A stretch of DNA of 26,104 bases, taken from IMG/VR virus record IMGVR_UViG_3300018481_000066, positions 1 to 26,104 of that record. One strand, written 5' to 3'. The notes beneath the pieces were generated by a model. That model was given only the letters and a program-made list of their open reading frames with translations. It was not told where the DNA came from and did not search any database. Each line of letters starts with the position of its first letter. Position 1 is the stretch's first letter. The position numbers and the translations under genes are program-made. Shown piece after piece: positions 2,741 to 11,799 of this stretch. Source of the DNA: a virus.

Positions 2741-4192
2741 CTATTCCGGAGGGAAGTTAATTCCGCCTTCACCGGCTTGGCCGGGAACGAACTCGTCGGG
2801 CGCGTCCGGAGCGATGGGGACCAGCGACGGTGCCCTTTGCAGCGCTGGCGGCAGCGGCATGCCGCGCTCCAGAAACCATTGCCGCATGTTGTCCCTCTCC
2901 GCCTCCGACATCTCGCCGGGGCGGTTCAGCAGCACCTGCGGCAACGGCGGCGGCGCTGGCGCTGGCTCCGGAAGCTTCTGCTCCTTGCGCCCCCAGCCGA
3001 CGCCGCCGGGCGGCGGGTTCGGGAATTGCACGTTCATACGCGTGCTGTAGCCGACGCCGCGCTGATAATTATGCTCGGCCTCGACGATGGTGTACGTGCC
3101 ATCGACGCCGGGACGCGCCTTCTTGATCTCCAGCACGCCGTTGGCCTTGGCGCGCGGATCGCCGTTGATCAGGCACCAGCCGGTGCCGCGACGGCCCTTT
3201 GAATCCCGGTTGGAGCCCGTGTTTGCCGCCTCGGCCGCGCCCTTGTCGGCGACCGCGTTGACCAGCTGGTTCACCGCCACGGTGCCGCCGAACGGCGCAG
3301 CTTGCGAACCTATCGCCTCTCTCGCCTTTTCCCAGACCGCAGCGTTGATGTCGAAGAAGCGCGCGGCGGCCCCAGCGAACTGCGGACGACCGGCGTACGG
3401 CTTGATGCGCCAGCCGATCAGGTTGACGCCCCACACCGCATCCAAAGCTTCCATCGTCGAGCCATCGACGTTGACGCCTTCGCCCTTGCCGACAATTGAA
3501 GCGACGCCGTTCGCGATCTTGAGGAAGCCGCCATACTTCTGCGCCAGCGAATTGGCGAAATCCATCGGGCTGCCGTTCATGTGGAAGAAGCTGTCGGTGA
3601 TCTTCATCATCTCCGGCGAGAGCTTTACGGTGATGCCGGTCCCGGCGAACGCTTCGGTCAGCACCTTCATCAGCGGAATTTTCTCTGCTGTGCCTGACGC
3701 GTCGCTCTCCTTGCCCTTGCCCCATGTGTTGATGAAGCCTTCCTTGCCGGTGCCCAGCACGTTGCCGGATGTCGCCTCGATCCAGACCCGGCGACCGCCG
3801 CCGCGCCGACCGAAGCCAGACTCCACCGACGACACCACGCCGGAAAAAACCGTCTGCATGCCGGGCCCGCCATAACGCAGCTCGACATCCTCGTGCTTGG
3901 TTCGCGAGATCGGACCCTGTCCGCCGATCACGCTGGAGCGGCCCCAGTCGGGAAGGCGCGGGCCCTCTCCGGCCCAGCCCATCGCCACCATCAGCTTGAC
4001 GCCGTCCGGCGGCAGCTGGAGCTGCGCGTTGCGGTCGTCCAGTTCGAGGTTGCACTGGTCGTGGCCGCCACCCTGCAGCGTGTCGATCACCTGCACCGAA
4101 ATCAGATACGGATCGAGCCGGTCGGTGACATCCTGTCCATCGACGATGATCTGCACCGCAGCCCGGCGTCGCGGCCCCTGATGCTCAGCCAT
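2741..4192 (-). CDS. D: Baseplate hub protein, P2 gpD-like
   Basis: At 483 residues this is longer than P2 gpD (387). The gpD family forms the trimeric baseplate hub that joins the tube to the central spike, equivalent to T4 gp27. The N-terminal region (VQIIVDGQDVTDRLDPYLISVQVID, about 13-37) and the following LELDDRNAQLQLP are typical of the late-control D family. Residues in the range 190-240 (GITVKLSPEMM, SPMDFANSLAQKYGGFLKI) match the region where the family describes evaluation of a test-field-like fold. The C-terminal 90 or so residues are Pro-rich and polar (PAPAPPPLPQVL) and probably form a tail specific to this phage. The start overlaps the X stop by 8 bases. Family assignment is also supported by the U-X-D gene order. 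Confidence 0.87.
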   Translation of the reverse strand: MAEHQGPRRRAAVQIIVDGQDVTDRLDPYLISVQVIDTLQGGGHDQCNLELDDRNAQLQLPPDGVKLMVAMGWAGEGPRLPDWGRSSVIGGQGPISRTKHEDVELRYGGPGMQTVFSGVVSSVESGFGRRGGGRRVWIEATSGNVLGTGKEGFINTWGKGKESDASGTAEKIPLMKVLTEAFAGTGITVKLSPEMMKITDSFFHMNGSPMDFANSLAQKYGGFLKIANGVASIVGKGEGVNVDGSTMEALDAVWGVNLIGWRIKPYAGRPQFAGAAARFFDINAAVWEKAREAIGSQAAPFGGTVAVNQLVNAVADKGAAEAANTGSNRDSKGRRGTGWCLINGDPRAKANGVLEIKKARPGVDGTYTIVEAEHNYQRGVGYSTRMNVQFPNPPPGGVGWGRKEQKLPEPAPAPPPLPQVLLNRPGEMSEAERDNMRQWFLERGMPLPPALQRAPSLVPIAPDAPDEFVPGQAGEGGINFPPE

Positions 4193-4508
4193 TGTCGTCC
4201 TGCGGTGTCAGCTCCTCGCTGTCGAGGGTGCCCTGTGTCGTGTTGCCTTCCGGCGTCACGCCCCACAGCACGATCTGGTTCTTCTTGATCTCGACGCCGC
4301 TCATCACGTCGTAGTCAATCGGGATGCGCACCTGCGTGCCGACCGGCAGAAACGGCGAGTAGCGATGCACCTTGGCGAGGTGCGGGTTGTCGTCCATCAG
4401 CCGCTCGATCATCCCCGGCGAGCGCATGCGATAGCGCCGCCACAGGATGATGTCGGCGGTGATGAAGTCCGAGCCGACAGTGACAACGTCATAGGATACG
4501 ACCGGCAT
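4185..4508 (-). CDS. X: Tail protein X (LysM-like), P2 gpX family
   Basis: This 107-residue protein starts at an ATG sharing bases with the U stop (TGATG), which decides the start over a longer, antisense-looking N-terminal reading of the same frame. The central segment ERLMDDNPHLAKVHRYSPF followed by LPVGTQVRIP (about 35-64) is the hallmark LysM-like motif of phage tail X proteins (NPxLA...LPxGTxIxIP). X proteins are small tail components encoded with U and D. The C-terminal 40 residues (VEIKKNQIVLWGVTPEG) extend beyond the short classical X proteins (about 67 residues in P2) and have no motif I recognise. Confidence 0.85.
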   Translation of the reverse strand: MPVVSYDVVTVGSDFITADIILWRRYRMRSPGMIERLMDDNPHLAKVHRYSPFLPVGTQVRIPIDYDVMSGVEIKKNQIVLWGVTPEGNTTQGTLDSEELTPQDDNG

Positions 4509-5068
4509 CAGGCACCAACCCCTTCGACAGCACCTGAACTCCAGAGCTGCACGATGCCGTCCGCGCCGTCGTTGGGAACTGGCACTCGCTGAAACGTCGC
4601 CTCGAACTCGATCTGCTGACCGATACCGTCGGCGGCGATCAGGCTGTGGCCGCGCTGCAGCGACTCGATGATGAACCAGCCGAAGTGCCAGCCGTCGCCG
4701 CGTATCAGAATGTGCGACTGACCGAGCCGCCGCATGTTGTCCAGCACGTCGAGGTGAAACAGGCCGCCCGCCGACGGATGCCCGCCGGTGTGTTCGCGCA
4801 GCAAGCGGCCGTCGAAGCCAGCGCTGCCCTGCAGCACCGGCTGCCGGATGCCGCGCTCGCGCATCTTTCGCGCGAAGAAGTGCGGAAAGATCAAACCCTT
4901 TACGGTAATAGTCTCGTCGCCCTCGCCCACCCATTCGCGATACATCGCAGCTCCGGCGATCTCCTTCTTCGCCCAGTCCGATGTGGTCGCGTGCGAATAC
5001 TGGTTGATGTTGAACGGGAAGACCTGAAACTGAATTGGTCCCCACTGGAATAAAACGAAGTTGGCCAT
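4508..5068 (-). CDS. U: Tail protein U, P2 gpU-like
   Basis: This 186-residue protein belongs to the P2 gpU family, a tail protein needed for completion of the shaft near the tip. The N-terminal pattern MANFVLFQWGPIQFQVFPFN is characteristic (a short protein opening with gxxxF and a hydrophobic strand). So are DWAKKEIAGAAMYREWVGEGDETITVKGLIFPHF (about 31-65), DNMRRLGQSHILIRGDGWHFGWFIIESL and the terminal EFEATFQRVP strand. Start and stop are both coupled: TGATG with the preceding 80-aa gene and TGATG with X. Length is close to the usual 150-190 residues. I see nothing abnormal in it. Confidence 0.87.
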   Translation of the reverse strand: MANFVLFQWGPIQFQVFPFNINQYSHATTSDWAKKEIAGAAMYREWVGEGDETITVKGLIFPHFFARKMRERGIRQPVLQGSAGFDGRLLREHTGGHPSAGGLFHLDVLDNMRRLGQSHILIRGDGWHFGWFIIESLQRGHSLIAADGIGQQIEFEATFQRVPVPNDGADGIVQLWSSGAVEGVGA

Positions 5069-5320: not shown

Positions 5321-5578
5321 TTAGTGCATCGCTCCCGCCGGAGGTGCGTTGAGCGCGTCCGCTGCATCTTGCCAGTCAGCATATTCGAGGAGATCAACCA
5401 GTAATTTTCTGGTGCGCCGCTGTTGCGTGCCTCGCCTCGGCTCGCCGTACTCGATCATTCTGAAGCGCGGCTGGACCGTGCTTTGATAGTGCCGCTCGTA
5501 AGCGCCCTCATCCATCTCTATCGAGAAGGTAAGGCGCAGGCGCATATCACCTTGCTGCAGACCATGCGCCGTTATCAT
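5321..5578 (-). CDS. Small protein after tape measure, unknown function
   Basis: This 85-residue protein starts at an ATG overlapping the tape-measure stop as ATGA, which favours it over an upstream in-frame start at 5608. It is rich in Arg and Met (RLRLTFSIEMDEGAYERHYQ, RRGTQQRRTRKLLVDLLEYADW), with a probable C-terminal helix. No family is recognised. Its position between tape measure and U is normally occupied by tail-tip or assembly genes in P2/Mu-like phages, so a tail role is a reasonable guess but nothing more. Confidence 0.6.
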   Translation of the reverse strand: MITAHGLQQGDMRLRLTFSIEMDEGAYERHYQSTVQPRFRMIEYGEPRRGTQQRRTRKLLVDLLEYADWQDAADALNAPPAGAMH

Positions 5579-8500
5579 GCTGCTCCAATATCCGAATAGC
5601 TGTTCCACCTTGCCTCGCGGACCTCGCGATCCGCCGAGCGCCGCATCGACGTGCGCGCGAACTGCACCTGCGTGTCATTGACCTTGAGATTCAAATTCAC
5701 GTAGCGCTCATCGCTCTTGGGTGCGCGCCCCGGCGCAGGAGGTGTGCCGCCGGTCTCTGGAGTTGGCGCGGTCGGCTCAGCACCGCTCGGCGGTGTGCCA
5801 GCGACAGCCGGTGGGCCAGACGGCGGGCCTGCCGGTGCTGCACCACCCGGTGCGCCAGCCGTCGCGGGCGCGTCTCCGCCGGGCGTCGGAATTTTTGTAC
5901 CGCGCGCGACAACCTGAGCCCGCCCGTTCTTATCCACGTCGATGCGCAAGCCGCCCGGCGTGCGCTTGTGCATGTCGAGCAAATGCTCGCGATAGGCTGG
6001 CCAATCCTTCGGATGAATCGCGAAACAGCCAGCCGAGTACAGCTTGTCGAGTCGTCCTGCCGCCGCGCTGTGAATTTGCACACCAGCGCGCTGCGACGCA
6101 TAGCGTGGGTCTTTGTAAGTGCCGCCGAGGCCGCCGACCGTGGCAATCGAGCGCGGTTGCTGGCCGGGTAAATGCGGATCGTCGCCCCTGCCCCAGTCGC
6201 CAAGCTGTCCTTTGCCACCATACTCTTTCGCGATGTTGATATCGTAAGAGCCCGCAGGTGTCGCACCGCGCGCCGTTCCGCCGGTGCCATACCGATAGGT
6301 CTTGCCCTCTAGCTCCATCGTGCCTTGGTAGTGATACGGAATCTTTGATGGGTCCTGCCCCGGAGAAGGACCACCCGACGGGCGCGTGCCCTCGGGAAGC
6401 GCTGGCGCACCGCCGGGGGGAAGCGATGCGGTCTGGCCGCCACCGGGCGTCGCCAGCTGCCTTTGATAGCCGGTGACGCCGCTCTGCCAGTGCTTGTTGA
6501 GCCCGCCCGGATCGTTCGCAGCGCCGACCGGCGCATAGCTCTTCGCCATCTGGCCGACATCGCCACCGGCCCTATGATAATTTTTGCCAATGGTGCGCCC
6601 GGCCGCAGCAATGCCTTCATCGATTGATCCGAACGACTGTCCGGTTTTCCATCCAGTCTTTGGGTCCATCAAGCCTGCGGGGTTGTTTTTATCCCGCAGC
6701 ATCTTCGACGTGCCCTTGCCCGTCTCGTGCGCCAAGATTCCAGCCATCAGCGACGGCGGCACATTGTTCTTCTGCGCTTCGGCAACGACGGTGTCGTACC
6801 TGCCTGCCAGCGGCGTGCCACTGAACATCTTGTCGTAGGCTTCGCGACTCAGATCGCCGCCAGCACCGCCACCAGCCTCTGCGGGCGCGCTCGGCGGAAG
6901 AGCCGCTTGGCGGCCCGTGCCGCTGCCGGTCCCCGGCATTGCTCCGGGCGTGCTGCCGCCGTAGCCGGTGCCACTGCCGCCGGGGCCTGCGGTCTGCTGA
7001 CCGCCGCCGATGCCGCCGGGGCCACCACCACTGCCACCGAGATATCCGCCACCGCTCGGCATGTACGACGCCTTGAGAACGCGAGCGTCGCCGCTGCCGC
7101 CGTAGCCCGTGCCGCCAGCCAGCGTGGTATCGCCGCCGCCGCCGGTGATGAACGACGACTTCTTCGGCGCTTCGGACGGTTGCAGGTTTTGAAATTTCTT
7201 CGCTTCTTCTGCGTCCCTTTTTTTCTTCTCTTCTTCCTGCTTGAACTTCTCTTGTTCTTTCTTGGCTTCCTCTGGATCGATATTGAGCCGCTGGAGTATA
7301 TCGCCAAGAGTCATCAACTGCCCAAGGCCGGGGGTCACTCTAAGAACCGACTTTCCTGCTTCCGCCCCCACCCCCTTGGGAAGCATGTCGGACAGCTTCT
7401 TCATAAGGCCGATGATTTTCTCAATCGTTTTGGCAATGCCGGACAGTATGGTCGCGAGCGCTTCAATGCCCGCTGTCACACCGATGGTGTCGAGAACAAA
7501 CCCGATGGACGTGCCCAGCTGAGTGAATGAATTGGTCAACCGCATCACCGAGCGCGCAGGACCCTCGATGACATTCTGGCCTTTCTCCCACATACCTCTG
7601 GCTCGGTTGGTCTTCTCGATGGTGGTGCCAAGCTCGCCCCAGACCTCCTTCAGCTTGACGATGACTTTCCGGTCGCGGATTCCAAGAACCTTCATCGCGG
7701 CTTCCGGGTCTTGCGATTTGATGAGCCGCTCGATCATCGCGCCGACGACATCACCCTCGCCACCAAGCTCGGCGATCTTCTTCATCTCCTCGTAGAACTT
7801 GCCGGGCGCGTAGCCAAGCGCGTCGCCCAGCTGTTCGTTGCCCATGTTGGCGAGCATGTTGCTGAACACCGCCGCCGCCTTGCTGGCGTCACCGGTTGCT
7901 TCCTTCATGGCACCAAGGATGGTGATGATGCTGGCGAAGCCCTCCTTGCCCTTGTATCCCCATTCCGAAGCCATCGTGGTCAGCTCCGACAGTCTCGGGC
8001 CGACTTGGCTCAGGTCCAGATTAAATTCAGATGCCGCGTGCGACATCGCCTCCATGACGCTGATGGCTTGGTCGGCCGGAATTTTCATGTTGCGCATCAC
8101 GTCGCCGACGGCGCGACCAGCTGCGCGAAGCTGCATGTTCGACCCTGCAGCAAGCCGCGTCAGGTTCGGCATCAGCTTCTGCGCCACGTCGGGCGCAAGG
8201 TTGCCCGCCTCGCGCAGCTCTTCGAAGCCAGCAAGCAGCTCGTCCACGCTGTCGCCGGTAATCGCCCCCAGCCGCTTCATCGAATCGCCGAGCGCATCGA
8301 TGGCTTTGCGCGACAAACCGGTCTGGTTCTGGATCAGCCGCAGCTTGTTGTCGTAGTCGGCAAAGCCCATGAAGCTGCGACGCAGCACCTCGAACGCTGC
8401 AGCGGCTGACAGCGCGCCTGCGGCTGACGTTGCCAGCCCAACCGCCGCGCCAGACAGCGCGGAACCGAACACCCGAGCCGCGCCACCAGCGCCGGTCGCA

Positions 8501-8769
8501 GCGTTGCCCAGCGCGGTGAGGTTTGATCCCATCACCTTCGCGGCCTGCGCGTTCTGCTGCAGATGTCCCATCATCTGCTTGAACGGCACACCGGTTTGCT
8601 CTGCGAATTTCTTGACCTGCGCGATGTTGATCTTGGTGCCGTCTTCGAGGGTCTTGATGCCCTTCTTGGTGTCGGCACCCATCTGCAGGACGTTGCGGCT
8701 CACCGACCGCAGCGCCGCTGCGGTGTTGTCCTCCATCGTGAGACGAAGTGTTGCTTCCTGATCGGACAT
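5575..8769 (-). CDS. T: Tape measure protein with C-terminal lysozyme-like and L,D-transpeptidase-like domains
   Basis: This 1064-residue protein would set tail length and pass through the tube during injection. Residues 1-130 hold helices and a hydrophobic Ala/Gly stretch (about 104-127). Residues 130-400 look like the TP901-type tape-measure core. A second hydrophobic region lies at about 420-457 and a charged coiled coil at 498-528. A Gly-rich linker (about 541-637) follows. Residues 650-772 look like a lysozyme-superfamily peptidoglycan hydrolase: LMAGILAHETGKGTSKM (E682 candidate acid), NNPAGL, and a helical end. Residues 808-950 look like an L,D-transpeptidase (YkuD-like) domain, with GATPAGSYDI, H900 in VQIHS and S912-A-G-C915. 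A Pro/Gly linker (960-1018) and a conserved-looking tail (YVNLNLKVNDTQVQFAR) end the protein. The RBS AAGGAA precedes ATG by about 6 bases. Confidence 0.88.
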   Translation of the reverse strand: MSDQEATLRLTMEDNTAAALRSVSRNVLQMGADTKKGIKTLEDGTKINIAQVKKFAEQTGVPFKQMMGHLQQNAQAAKVMGSNLTALGNAATGAGGAARVFGSALSGAAVGLATSAAGALSAAAAFEVLRRSFMGFADYDNKLRLIQNQTGLSRKAIDALGDSMKRLGAITGDSVDELLAGFEELREAGNLAPDVAQKLMPNLTRLAAGSNMQLRAAGRAVGDVMRNMKIPADQAISVMEAMSHAASEFNLDLSQVGPRLSELTTMASEWGYKGKEGFASIITILGAMKEATGDASKAAAVFSNMLANMGNEQLGDALGYAPGKFYEEMKKIAELGGEGDVVGAMIERLIKSQDPEAAMKVLGIRDRKVIVKLKEVWGELGTTIEKTNRARGMWEKGQNVIEGPARSVMRLTNSFTQLGTSIGFVLDTIGVTAGIEALATILSGIAKTIEKIIGLMKKLSDMLPKGVGAEAGKSVLRVTPGLGQLMTLGDILQRLNIDPEEAKKEQEKFKQEEEKKKRDAEEAKKFQNLQPSEAPKKSSFITGGGGDTTLAGGTGYGGSGDARVLKASYMPSGGGYLGGSGGGPGGIGGGQQTAGPGGSGTGYGGSTPGAMPGTGSGTGRQAALPPSAPAEAGGGAGGDLSREAYDKMFSGTPLAGRYDTVVAEAQKNNVPPSLMAGILAHETGKGTSKMLRDKNNPAGLMDPKTGWKTGQSFGSIDEGIAAAGRTIGKNYHRAGGDVGQMAKSYAPVGAANDPGGLNKHWQSGVTGYQRQLATPGGGQTASLPPGGAPALPEGTRPSGGPSPGQDPSKIPYHYQGTMELEGKTYRYGTGGTARGATPAGSYDINIAKEYGGKGQLGDWGRGDDPHLPGQQPRSIATVGGLGGTYKDPRYASQRAGVQIHSAAAGRLDKLYSAGCFAIHPKDWPAYREHLLDMHKRTPGGLRIDVDKNGRAQVVARGTKIPTPGGDAPATAGAPGGAAPAGPPSGPPAVAGTPPSGAEPTAPTPETGGTPPAPGRAPKSDERYVNLNLKVNDTQVQFARTSMRRSADREVREARWNSYSDIGAA

Positions 8770-8779
8770 CGGGAATTCC

Positions 8780-9205
8780 TTACGGCTCTTCGCTCAGGTC
8801 AAAGCCTTCGTCGGCCGCCGACGGAAACGGCACGCCCGGACCCTGCAGCGGTTGCTCCGGCGGAGCGCCGCCATTGGTTGCCGGTTGCGGCGCAGCCGCC
8901 GGGATCACGCCCGTCGGAACGCGACCGTTGATGATGTCGTCGCGGATGTCCGGCGTGAGCATGGTGAGGAACGATTCCATCACCCGGTCGGCGTCCGGGT
9001 AACGCAGCTCGCGGATCACCGCCTCCTCGACATCTGCAAGCTCGACCAGCAAGGCGACCGAGGTTTTCCACGCGCCCTCGTTCCAGCGCAGCGCGTGGCC
9101 GAGCCGGAGCGGGGACAACGTGATGCTCTCGATCCTCTTGCCGTTGAAGTCGAACGGGATGAAAAGCTGGATGGTCTTGCCGCCTGTCTTGTTCAGTGTG
9201 ATCAC
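8780..9205 (-). CDS. E: Tail assembly chaperone, P2 gpE-like
   Basis: About 141 residues. The gene lies directly before the tape measure, as all tail assembly chaperones do. The N-terminal part (ITLNKTGGKTIQLFIPFDFNGKRIESITLSPLRLGHAL) has the beta-strand pattern of the P2/Mu gpE class. It is followed by a helical acidic part (VELADVEEAVIRELRYPDADRVMESFLTML) and a Pro/Ala-rich tail. These chaperones hold the tape measure during tail polymerisation. There are two in-frame GTG starts. GTG at 9205-9203 forms a GTGA overlap with the stop of the 53-aa ORF; GTG at 9214 would add three residues. I looked for a slippery site for a gpE/E'-style minus-one frameshift and saw none. Confidence 0.75.
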   Translation of the reverse strand: MITLNKTGGKTIQLFIPFDFNGKRIESITLSPLRLGHALRWNEGAWKTSVALLVELADVEEAVIRELRYPDADRVMESFLTMLTPDIRDDIINGRVPTGVIPAAAPQPATNGGAPPEQPLQGPGVPFPSAADEGFDLSEEP

Positions 9206-9363
9206 GTGTGACACCAGATCGTGACGACCAGCTCGCCCCTATCGACGCGCTGATCAATGAACTCGACGTTCGCGATGGGGCCAGCGCCGTCGCGATCCGC
9301 AACGACGACGCGCTTCTTTTCATCCTGCTTCTGCAGGAGGTCGATCAGCTCGCGGACTGTCAT
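9202..9363 (-). CDS. 53-aa ORF between tube and chaperone genes, unknown function
   Basis: Reading the minus strand from 9363 gives ATG, then 53 codons, then TGA at 9204-9202. The product begins MTVRELIDLLQKQDEKKRVV and ends ELVVTIWCHT. The ATG overlaps the tube stop as ATGA and the TGA overlaps a GTG of the chaperone gene as GTGA, so it fits a fully coupled chain and fills what would otherwise be a gap of about 150 bases. The opening MTVxELIxLLxKxxxxxxVVV resembles many short phage proteins of unknown function, with a helix followed by two strands. I do not assign a function. In P2 the FII and E genes are adjacent, so this is an extra gene at that point. Confidence 0.72.
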   Translation of the reverse strand: MTVRELIDLLQKQDEKKRVVVADRDGAGPIANVEFIDQRVDRGELVVTIWCHT

Positions 9364-9932
9364 ACGTTAGTCGGGATCGCGAGCAGCTCGACCATGTCGT
9401 CGGTCAGCTCACGGTTACCGACGCGCACGCGCGAGGTATAGAAGTCCCACCAGTAGATTTCGGTGGGCTCCTCGTCACGGTGCATCTGCAGCCACAGCTC
9501 GTAATGCGTGATGCTTTTGATGCTGAACTCGTGTGACTGCAGGTTGCCTTTGGAGAACGCGGTCGGGTTCACCCGGCCAAGTCGCCCTTCCATGATCGCC
9601 GTGGCCTTCAGCGCTTCGGCCGAGCGGCGGTCGCGGATCAAACCGTACGCGGTGAAGCGGTGGAAGAACGGATCGTTGGTGCCGATGAACGTCATCACGT
9701 CGGGGTCCCACCCGGCGAGATTGAACGTCGCTTCCATCTTGTTGATATGGGTCGGAATTTCGATAGCGATCATCGCCCCGCCCGGCGCGTGATCGACAAA
9801 GTTTTCTTCCAGCGTCGGCAGCTTCAGCTCCTGCAGGATCAGGTGCGTGTTGAAGCCCGGCGCGCGGGAGCCGCGCCAGTCGCCGCAGATCAGGTTGGCG
9901 CTTTCCATCACATAGATGGTCTGGTTTTGCAT
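9360..9932 (-). CDS. FII: Tail tube protein, P2 gpFII-like
   Basis: This 190-residue protein is the inner tube subunit of a contractile tail. The family (P2 FII, about 172 residues) is recognised from VMESANLICGDWR near the N-terminus, LILQELKLPTLEENFVDHAPGGAMIAIEIPTHINKMEATFNLAGWDPDVM (about 31-80), then RRSAEALKATAIMEGRLGRVNPTAF and the closing YEL/W strands with RELTDDMVELLAIP. It follows the sheath gene, as in P2. An AAGGAAA Shine-Dalgarno lies about 6 bases before the ATG, and a branched stem-loop sits between that site and the sheath stop. The stop is coupled to the 53-aa ORF by ATGA. Confidence 0.9.
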   Translation of the reverse strand: MQNQTIYVMESANLICGDWRGSRAPGFNTHLILQELKLPTLEENFVDHAPGGAMIAIEIPTHINKMEATFNLAGWDPDVMTFIGTNDPFFHRFTAYGLIRDRRSAEALKATAIMEGRLGRVNPTAFSKGNLQSHEFSIKSITHYELWLQMHRDEEPTEIYWWDFYTSRVRVGNRELTDDMVELLAIPTNV

Positions 9933-10035: not shown

Positions 10036-11799
10036 TTACGAAGTCGCCAGACTGAGCTGGGACGACAGATCGGCGACCATCGCATCGACCGCCTCGCGAT
10101 AACGCGAAGACTCGATGGTCAGGTGCTTGAGGACCGGCGGCTCCTCCGCCTTGAAGCCGACGGTGAGATGGCCGAGCCTGATCTGCTCCGGTGAATTACC
10201 CTCGGTCTTGAAGTTCACCTTGTAACCGAGAATATGCTGGTCGGCATGAAGATCACGCAGGAAGAACTGCATGGTGTTCATGATCGCCTGTATGGTGTGG
10301 CCGATGATGTTGTAGCGGCCGAGATAGAAGCGCAGCGCGCGCAGCATGCCTAGGTGGATGTAGTCACGCCCGCGCATCACGTTGTACATTTGCCACAACG
10401 GGTCTTCGCCTGCGTTGTCAGTGGAGACAAGCACGAAGCCGCCCGATGCAATTGCAAAGTCGTCGCCGACTTCGCCGCGCACCAGCACACCGATGTTCGC
10501 CGCAAGAAGCTCCTGCGCCTCGTTCGCCGAGTCGGTGAGGTTGAAGCCGATGTCGCGGTTCGGCGAGATGATGCCCTGCACCGCTTGGTTCGCCGCGCTG
10601 TGGAACGGCGCGCCGGTTTCGTGGTCGCGCCGCACCATGATGCCAGCCATGCGCGGAGCCAGCGGACGGATCACGATGAAGGACGTGGCCGGGTCCATCA
10701 CGCGGCAGCCGCCCGACAGCGGGATCAGCCGATGCGACTGCATCGTCTCGCGCCAATCGAGATCGTTCTGCATCGACGAGCCAGCCGATTCGACGATCAT
10801 CATGCCCATCAGCTGGTTGCAGATCGCCGTCGCGCCCGCCACCACCGGGTTGGCTCCGGCGACGATCTCGGCGGTGTAGGTCGCCGTGGTGCCGGTCTCC
10901 TCCCACGTAATGGTGAACTCCGCGCCGGTGCCTGCGCCGGTCGAGGTCTCCGGTGCAGTCGCAACCACCGGAGGGTCTTCGGTGCCGACGATGAAGCCGG
11001 GGCTGGTGACCGTGGCGGTGAGAACCGATCCGCCAGCGCCGACGGTGGCGACAGTCAGGATCACGTTGTGCGGCAGCATCAGCTGCTCGTTGACCTGATA
11101 GCCGATGCCGCCGACCGCGACCGCAGCGGTGTCCGCCTGATGGCCGGGCGGCGGTGCCGTGATGGTCGGCGGCGTGTCGTACCAAGCGCCGGGAATCTCC
11201 AGCTCAATAGGCCCGAGCGACCCATCGCTCAGGCCGTAGGCATGGCCCTGCGCCTGCACCGCGTCAGGACCGCCGCCGGAGAACTCCACCGGATAGAGAT
11301 GCTCCAGCACGTAGCCGGTGCCTGCGGCAGTGCGCTCGATGGCACCGACGCCGTTCGCCATCTGCGACGTGTAGCCCGGCGCGGTCAGGATGCGCGGCGT
11401 GAAGCCGAGCTTCGGTGCCGACTTGAGGAACGCCCACATGCCGGTGCCGTTGAGACTGTCGCCAGCGATCTTCGAGATGGTCTGCTGCAGCTTGATCGCC
11501 GGATCGGAATCGACACCTTCCGCCGTGCGGACGACAACGATGCGCGCGGCGAACTGGGTCTCGCCGAGCTGATCGTTGATGCCGCGCACCGCGTCCGACA
11601 GATAACCAAGCTCGCCGAGCTTCTTAGTCTTGGCTTGGTCGTTCGAATTGATGAACACCGGCGTGTCGAGCGGAAAGATCACCGGGTCGGCGAGCGCGGC
11701 TGGCCCGACGATACCAATGGTCGAAAGATCGGCAGCCAGAACCGGCCGCGCGCCTTCGTCCACCTTGCGAATGCTAATACCGAAGATCGGGTCAGCCAT
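10036..11799 (-). CDS. FI: Contractile tail sheath protein with inserted domain
   Basis: At 587 residues this is much longer than P2 FI (396). The sheath family surrounds the tube and contracts to drive injection. Family features are: an N-terminal strand region with GIVGPA and FINS (28-51), LGYLSDAVRGINDQ, AARIVVVRT, then FTPRILTAPGYTSQ (133-146). After an interruption they resume with NPVVAGATAICNQLMGMMIVESAG, HRLIPLSGGCRVMD, GIMVRRDHETGAPFHSAANQAVQGI, and a C-terminal RDYIHLGMLRALRFYLGRYN and NNTxxx-type strand region. The interruption (about 150-312) contains GGIGYQVNEQL and a TSTGAGTGAEFTITW segment, like modules decorating phage structural proteins. The RBS AGGAGAA lies 6-7 bases before the ATG. 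A stem-loop follows the stop. Confidence 0.9.
   Translation of the reverse strand: MADPIFGISIRKVDEGARPVLAADLSTIGIVGPAALADPVIFPLDTPVFINSNDQAKTKKLGELGYLSDAVRGINDQLGETQFAARIVVVRTAEGVDSDPAIKLQQTISKIAGDSLNGTGMWAFLKSAPKLGFTPRILTAPGYTSQMANGVGAIERTAAGTGYVLEHLYPVEFSGGGPDAVQAQGHAYGLSDGSLGPIELEIPGAWYDTPPTITAPPPGHQADTAAVAVGGIGYQVNEQLMLPHNVILTVATVGAGGSVLTATVTSPGFIVGTEDPPVVATAPETSTGAGTGAEFTITWEETGTTATYTAEIVAGANPVVAGATAICNQLMGMMIVESAGSSMQNDLDWRETMQSHRLIPLSGGCRVMDPATSFIVIRPLAPRMAGIMVRRDHETGAPFHSAANQAVQGIISPNRDIGFNLTDSANEAQELLAANIGVLVRGEVGDDFAIASGGFVLVSTDNAGEDPLWQMYNVMRGRDYIHLGMLRALRFYLGRYNIIGHTIQAIMNTMQFFLRDLHADQHILGYKVNFKTEGNSPEQIRLGHLTVGFKAEEPPVLKHLTIESSRYREAVDAMVADLSSQLSLATS

Follow-up and report, generated by a model that had tools for sequence, protein, structure and literature searches.

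The window, i.e. the whole stretch of 26,104 nucleotides that was analysed (a virus contig of 26.1 kb), encodes a tape measure protein whose tip probably carries two enzymes in tandem: a GH73 glucosaminidase and a hydrolase of the YkuD (L,D-transpeptidase) fold that would act on peptide links at meso-DAP. Muralytic domains in phage tape measures are known, as are two-enzyme tail proteins such as CwlP. New here is the family of YkuD-fold domains in tape measures, which was not found in the literature, Pfam models and annotated phage records searched.

Tape measure gene and tail module

The ORF at 5575..8769 (minus strand, including the stop codon) encodes 1064 aa and is, by its sequence, the tape measure protein of a contractile-tailed phage (myovirus). 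It matched PF10145 (PhageMin_Tail) with 60.7 bits and an E-value of 2.3e-16, above the curated cut-off of 33.2 bits, and TIGR01760 with 37.4 bits and an E-value of 1.5e-9 (cut-off 28.8), as well as several PHROG tape measure families. The PhageMin_Tail core comprises residues 162-326 (7792..8286, minus). As expected of a tape measure gene, it is situated between chaperone-like, tube and sheath genes and a GpU-like gene. The surrounding myovirus tail module contains the tail sheath (10036-11799), a gene in the tube position (9360-9932) and a tail protein (8780-9214) upstream, the GpU-like gene (4508-5068) and a tail protein (2741-4192) downstream, and baseplate genes. The host is probably Gram-negative because of the closest capsid and sheath relatives: the capsid protein was nearest to phages of Gram-negative hosts (Acinetobacter, Rhizobium, Pseudanabaena) and the sheath to a Microcystis phage and to Bradyrhizobium phage BDU-MI-1.

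Two minor features were observed next to the tape measure gene and in the sheath. An ORF of 85 aa (MITAHGLQ...) lies at 5321-5578 on the minus strand, and its start overlaps the tape measure stop (ATGA). It is absent from the close-relative contigs L002 and L003, which carry a CHAP domain in place of the YkuD-like domain, and had no homologue among the related loci compared. Residues 217-349 of the sheath resemble an insert and matched the head decoration family phrog_9703 (E 1.9e-4).

GH73 glucosaminidase domain

Residues 639-775 (6445..6855, minus) are assigned by sequence to the GH73 glucosaminidases of the lysozyme superfamily. PF01832 (Glucosaminidase) was matched with 35.1 bits by the whole protein and 38.8 bits by the domain alone (cut-off 30.2), and the closest solved structure by sequence was the phage cell wall hydrolase 8yxk (E 3.4e-10). 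The predicted catalytic acid E682 (6724..6726, minus) matches the HETG Glu of 8yxk in the alignment and was invariant in 23 of 23 related tape measures, across which N696-P697, G699, M701-D702 and a YAP motif were also invariant or nearly so. The lysozyme-superfamily-like region around E682 that had been recognised in the initial annotation is hereby confirmed, and the motifs quoted there are all found at the residues given: AHETGKGTSK at 680, NNPAGL at 695, GATPAGSYDI at 835, H900 and SAGC at 912-915. From its family, the domain is expected to cut glycan.

Divergent YkuD-like domain

Behind a Gly/Pro-rich linker (residues 776-810; 6340..6444, minus) follows the second domain, residues 811-955 (5905..6339, minus), which can be classified as a divergent YkuD relative below the Pfam thresholds for YkuD and Tlde1. 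On residues 811-961, YkuD (PF03734) reached 16.5 bits (E 0.013) with a curated cut-off of 23.4, and Tlde1_dom (PF10908) 15.3-15.7 bits (E 0.02) with a cut-off of 30.1; no Pfam, NCBIfam or PDB sequence match was significant for the window's own domain. A pattern scan of viral contigs with this domain alone gave no match, and the family search needed a second member, the second domain of the GH73 tape measure of L017, which is 44% identical. Iteration from this pair led to 18 and then 79 loci in viral contigs (IMG/VR), mostly tape-measure-like ORFs, and 48 non-redundant homologues were 30-62% identical to the window's domain. Among family members, the best E-value for YkuD was 2.5e-4 and Tlde1_dom was matched as well; the divergent tape measure of L097 reached 21 bits and an E-value of 5e-6 for YkuD (cut-off 23.4). 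Pgp2 of C. jejuni was the top PDB match of the family profile and of a divergent member (E 0.4-0.6), with His and Cys aligned, and it was the only PDB match with an L,D-transpeptidase fold at the sequence level (E 0.4-1.4 across queries).

The domain was not found by tblastn in 50,697 annotated phages, and short-pattern scans of 84,980 bacterial and archaeal genomes, by which absence is not proven, gave no homologue. Two apparent matches were rejected as chance: one is antisense to the tape measure of RHEph10, and in protein GHHBBDOD_00165 of avDM4 the motif is missing. Comparison by hhalign with LdtA/B/C/E and DpaA of E. coli gave no match; such narrow profiles cannot test kinship because the GH73 and CHAP controls gave the same null level as the E. 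coli YkuD proteins.

An AlphaFold model based on the alignment of 48 sequences had a pLDDT of 85.5 and a pTM of 0.83. An earlier model from four sequences (pLDDT 68) was discarded, as a Foldseek search with it was meaningless. With the 48-sequence model, Foldseek gave no significant match in PDB or BFVD, and its top three rows were LdtA of V. cholerae, the best, and DpaA (E about 0.57-1.2). Re-alignment with VIA-align, which covered only chains already ranked by Foldseek and gave Z-scores that were all below 8, placed enzymes of the L,D-transpeptidase fold in all of the top 37 structural rows (Z 7.1 to 5.2), with the first unrelated row at Z 2.7. The highest scores were obtained for Pgp2 (7.1) and Csd6 of H. 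pylori (6.9), in both of which His and Cys align with those of the phage domain, followed by YkuD (6.7), DpaA (6.4) and Bd1075 (6.3).

The predicted catalytic His, H900 (6070..6072, minus), was invariant in all 48 sequences, and so was the predicted nucleophile C915 (6025..6027, minus) of the S912-A-G-C motif, which reads [ST]xGCF throughout with Ser or Thr at residue 912. The invariant positions also include G816, G830, G840, G896, L907, D908, L910, G914, F916, W923 and P924. The model, the sequence hints and these invariant residues combined, of which no single line is decisive, make an L,D-transpeptidase fold very likely for residues 811-955. The L,D-transpeptidase-like region had been proposed from motifs; the structural comparison suggested along with it returned this fold, and the Cys-His pair is present.

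The short distance between His and the SxGC motif had raised doubt about activity. The 11 residues that separate H900 from S912 had been counted correctly, but as a sign of inactivity this gap was dropped: the His-to-Cys distance is 15 in the window and in 45 of the 48 members and spans 8 to 17 in characterised enzymes, with 8 in DpaA, 16 in LdtB and 17 in the Pgp2 alignment. Active Tlde1a, with H121 and C131, has a distance of 10 (PMC9638812).

Exchangeable slot behind the glucosaminidase

The contigs L002 and L003 are close relatives of the window, with 85-92% DNA identity over about 6 kb and 3 kb, respectively. Within the tape measure gene, similarity to both (blastn) ends at 6424 and resumes at 5769. 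The cassette in between (5770..6423, minus) had no match in L002 and L003, where a CHAP domain is found instead (E 2.4e-6 in L002). Similarity resumes with the conserved C-terminal tail of the protein (residues 1001-1064; 5578..5769, minus), which has 88% DNA identity to L002. The predicted products on both sides of this exchange are enzymes of wall penetration.

A survey of 25 GH73 loci indicates that the second enzyme position is an exchangeable slot for putative stem-peptide cutters. The slot is occupied by CHAP/TIGR02594 in L003, L008-L010 and L012, by an M15_4 peptidase in L015 and L026 and, by resemblance, in L016 and L027, by Amidase_2 in L024 (E 1.7e-5, just below the cut-off), by other peptidase-like sequences in some GH73 loci and by the YkuD-like domain in L017. 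Nothing was found in it in L021 and L023. In L011:4409-5131 and L022:4403-5431, it contains a domain with Cys (ATCGQF and GPACGIV, respectively) that had no convincing Pfam match and is possibly another peptidase family.

The YkuD-like domain in turn was found with GH73, SLT, Phage_lysozyme2, M23, Amidase_2 or without any partner. Its carriers matched PHROG families of tape measure or lytic tail proteins, the largest two accounting for 23/50 and 18/50. Judged from these loci, the domain is a recurrent module of tape measures and not a one-off.

Predicted activity of the second domain

Catalysis would be carried out by the pair H900-C915, as predicted from conservation and the model. The second domain is most likely a hydrolase and not a cross-linking transpeptidase because all but one of the 48 members lack the transpeptidase Arg and related phages have hydrolases in the slot. 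The position two after Cys is Arg in LdtA/B/C/E of E. coli and Ala in DpaA (PMC8263019), and A917 in the window. Of the two actions considered in the initial annotation, cutting or re-forming of cross-links, cutting is favoured and re-forming has become less likely.

A true L,D-transpeptidase, or a D-amino-acid exchange enzyme such as Tlde1a, that modifies or re-seals stem peptides at the injection site is, for the same reasons, unlikely. It would have the same fold class, and Tlde1_dom is among the best Pfam matches. Tlde1a itself, a T6SS effector (PF10908) with an L,D-transpeptidase fold, is delivered by a contractile machine and has carboxypeptidase and exchange activity (PMC9638812). However, the phage domain scores 15.7 bits in comparison to the cut-off of 30.1, and residues 811-961 contain no Cys besides C915, so neither of the two disulfides of Tlde1a is possible.

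Somewhat less probable still is a D-Ala-removing L,D-carboxypeptidase that trims tetrapeptides rather than opening cross-links. Pgp2 and Csd6, the closest solved structures, are of this type, and Pgp2, which alone was also matched by sequence, shows Ala in place of the transpeptidase Arg (GCIAL), as the window does with A917. Both are cellular enzymes and not virion parts, share 16-19% identity with the phage domain and possess, two residues ahead of His, the Trp by which the D-Ala pocket is lined in L,D-carboxypeptidases (PMC10653827). This Trp is missing in all 48 members, with Q898 in the window and Gln as the commonest residue; the Trp rule, like the Arg rule, is a correlation from few enzymes. 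Moreover, the mesh would stay closed if only free tetrapeptides were trimmed.

A catalytically dead domain that serves as a peptidoglycan-binding or spacer module would fit several low sequence scores and the long linkers in the tape measure tip. It is nevertheless improbable, given that His, Ser/Thr and Cys are invariant in 48 sequences down to 30% identity and would not be needed for binding alone. Chance motif matches in a low-complexity tail, to which the Gly/Pro-rich surroundings and the lack of a significant library match for the window alone might point, are already contradicted by conservation and can practically be dismissed in view of 79 homologous loci, a confident fold and top structural rows with only L,D-transpeptidase-fold enzymes.

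The preferred hydrolase has a parallel in DpaA of E. coli. It detaches Braun lipoprotein from peptidoglycan by hydrolysing the bond between meso-DAP and the lipoprotein. DpaA, likewise of the YkuD fold, has Ala at the second position after Cys and lacks a Trp at the second position before His, so that the transpeptidase Arg and the carboxypeptidase Trp are both absent as in the phage domain; it differs in its His-to-Cys distance (8 compared to 15), and no kinship was detected by hhalign. From the Arg and Trp absences common to DpaA, our best guess is therefore that the domain hydrolyses a bond whose leaving group is bulky, i.e. a cross-link or a protein tether. More specifically, the domain might be a virion-borne L,D-endopeptidase that breaks 3-3 (meso-DAP to meso-DAP) cross-links or the tethers between outer-membrane proteins and peptidoglycan, which we put forward tentatively.

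Proposed mechanism and comparison with known systems

During infection, the tape measure would leave the tube upon contraction and its tip would reach the wall. The GH73 domain would then cut glycan strands, and C915 of the YkuD-fold domain, as nucleophile, would hydrolyse the amide at the L-centre of meso-DAP, this amide being a cross-link or a protein tether. Together, both domains would breach the wall locally and leave a small opening through which the tube can pass. A role of the YkuD-like domain as endolysin was dropped, since the window has lysis genes of its own at 1496-2068 and 2072-2731.

The tape measures of TM4 and T5 pb2 have muralytic activity, as is predicted for that of the window; unlike in the latter, no YkuD-like domain was found reported in the literature consulted on them. 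Motif 3 of the TM4 tape measure helps the phage to infect cells in stationary phase (PMC1796659). In the SP-beta prophage, the large tail protein CwlP (YomI) unites a lysozyme, which cuts glycan, with an endopeptidase, which cuts peptide (PMC5380687), a combination also predicted for the window's protein. However, its peptide cutter is a D,D-endopeptidase without the L,D-transpeptidase fold and its host is Gram-positive. In a review from 2017, five virion lysins are listed that have two lytic domains each, and all five belong to phages that infect Gram-positive bacteria (PMC5380687). Closer in sequence are the tape measures of Bradyrhizobium phage BDU-MI-1 (ARQ95328.1) and of L002/L003 (IMG/VR), whose GH73 domains are 48% and 91% identical to the window's, respectively, and are likewise followed by a second enzyme, which is CHAP/TIGR02594 and not YkuD-like.

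YkuD-family enzymes can be transpeptidases, carboxypeptidases, endopeptidases or amidases (PMC12729407). The initial annotation had regarded a YkuD-like domain in a tape measure as uncommon. This agrees with the ten entries for YkuD domains in phage lytic proteins in PhaLP (PMC8310338) and with a literature search that returned no tape measure with a domain of the YkuD or L,D-transpeptidase type, the sole co-occurrence being, by its title, a review on Mycobacterium cell walls.

Lytic transglycosylases are inhibited by L,D-cross-links, which also give E. coli protection from the phages lambda and P2 (PMC11390936); walls with such links reportedly withstand the lytic transglycosylases of phages as well. 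If the proposed activity is true, a phage enzyme directed against the bonds made by L,D-enzymes would directly counter walls of this kind, which we offer as a hypothesis. In the near-identical phage pair that differs in the cassette, the putative peptide-cutting half of the tip is exchanged and the glycan-cutting half is kept; host-wall peptide chemistry may therefore drive the swap. Lysins with new specificity might also be derived from the YkuD-like domain.

Further arrangements of the YkuD-like domain

In L104 and L106-L113 (e.g. L110:5971-7482), the YkuD-like domain opens an ORF of approx. 500 aa and is followed by lysozyme-like or other sequence. This ORF may encode a separate virion protein and not a tape measure. 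In the tape measure of L060 (4081-7278), a sequence resembling M15 peptidases (SQHPNALAVDW ... HVSID) comes behind the YkuD-like domain, the reverse of the glycosidase-first order. L093:4081-6159 is a near copy of the L060 tape measure that is broken inside the YkuD-like domain, the frame being lost after ...TPYGGKG, which could be due to a sequencing error or decay.
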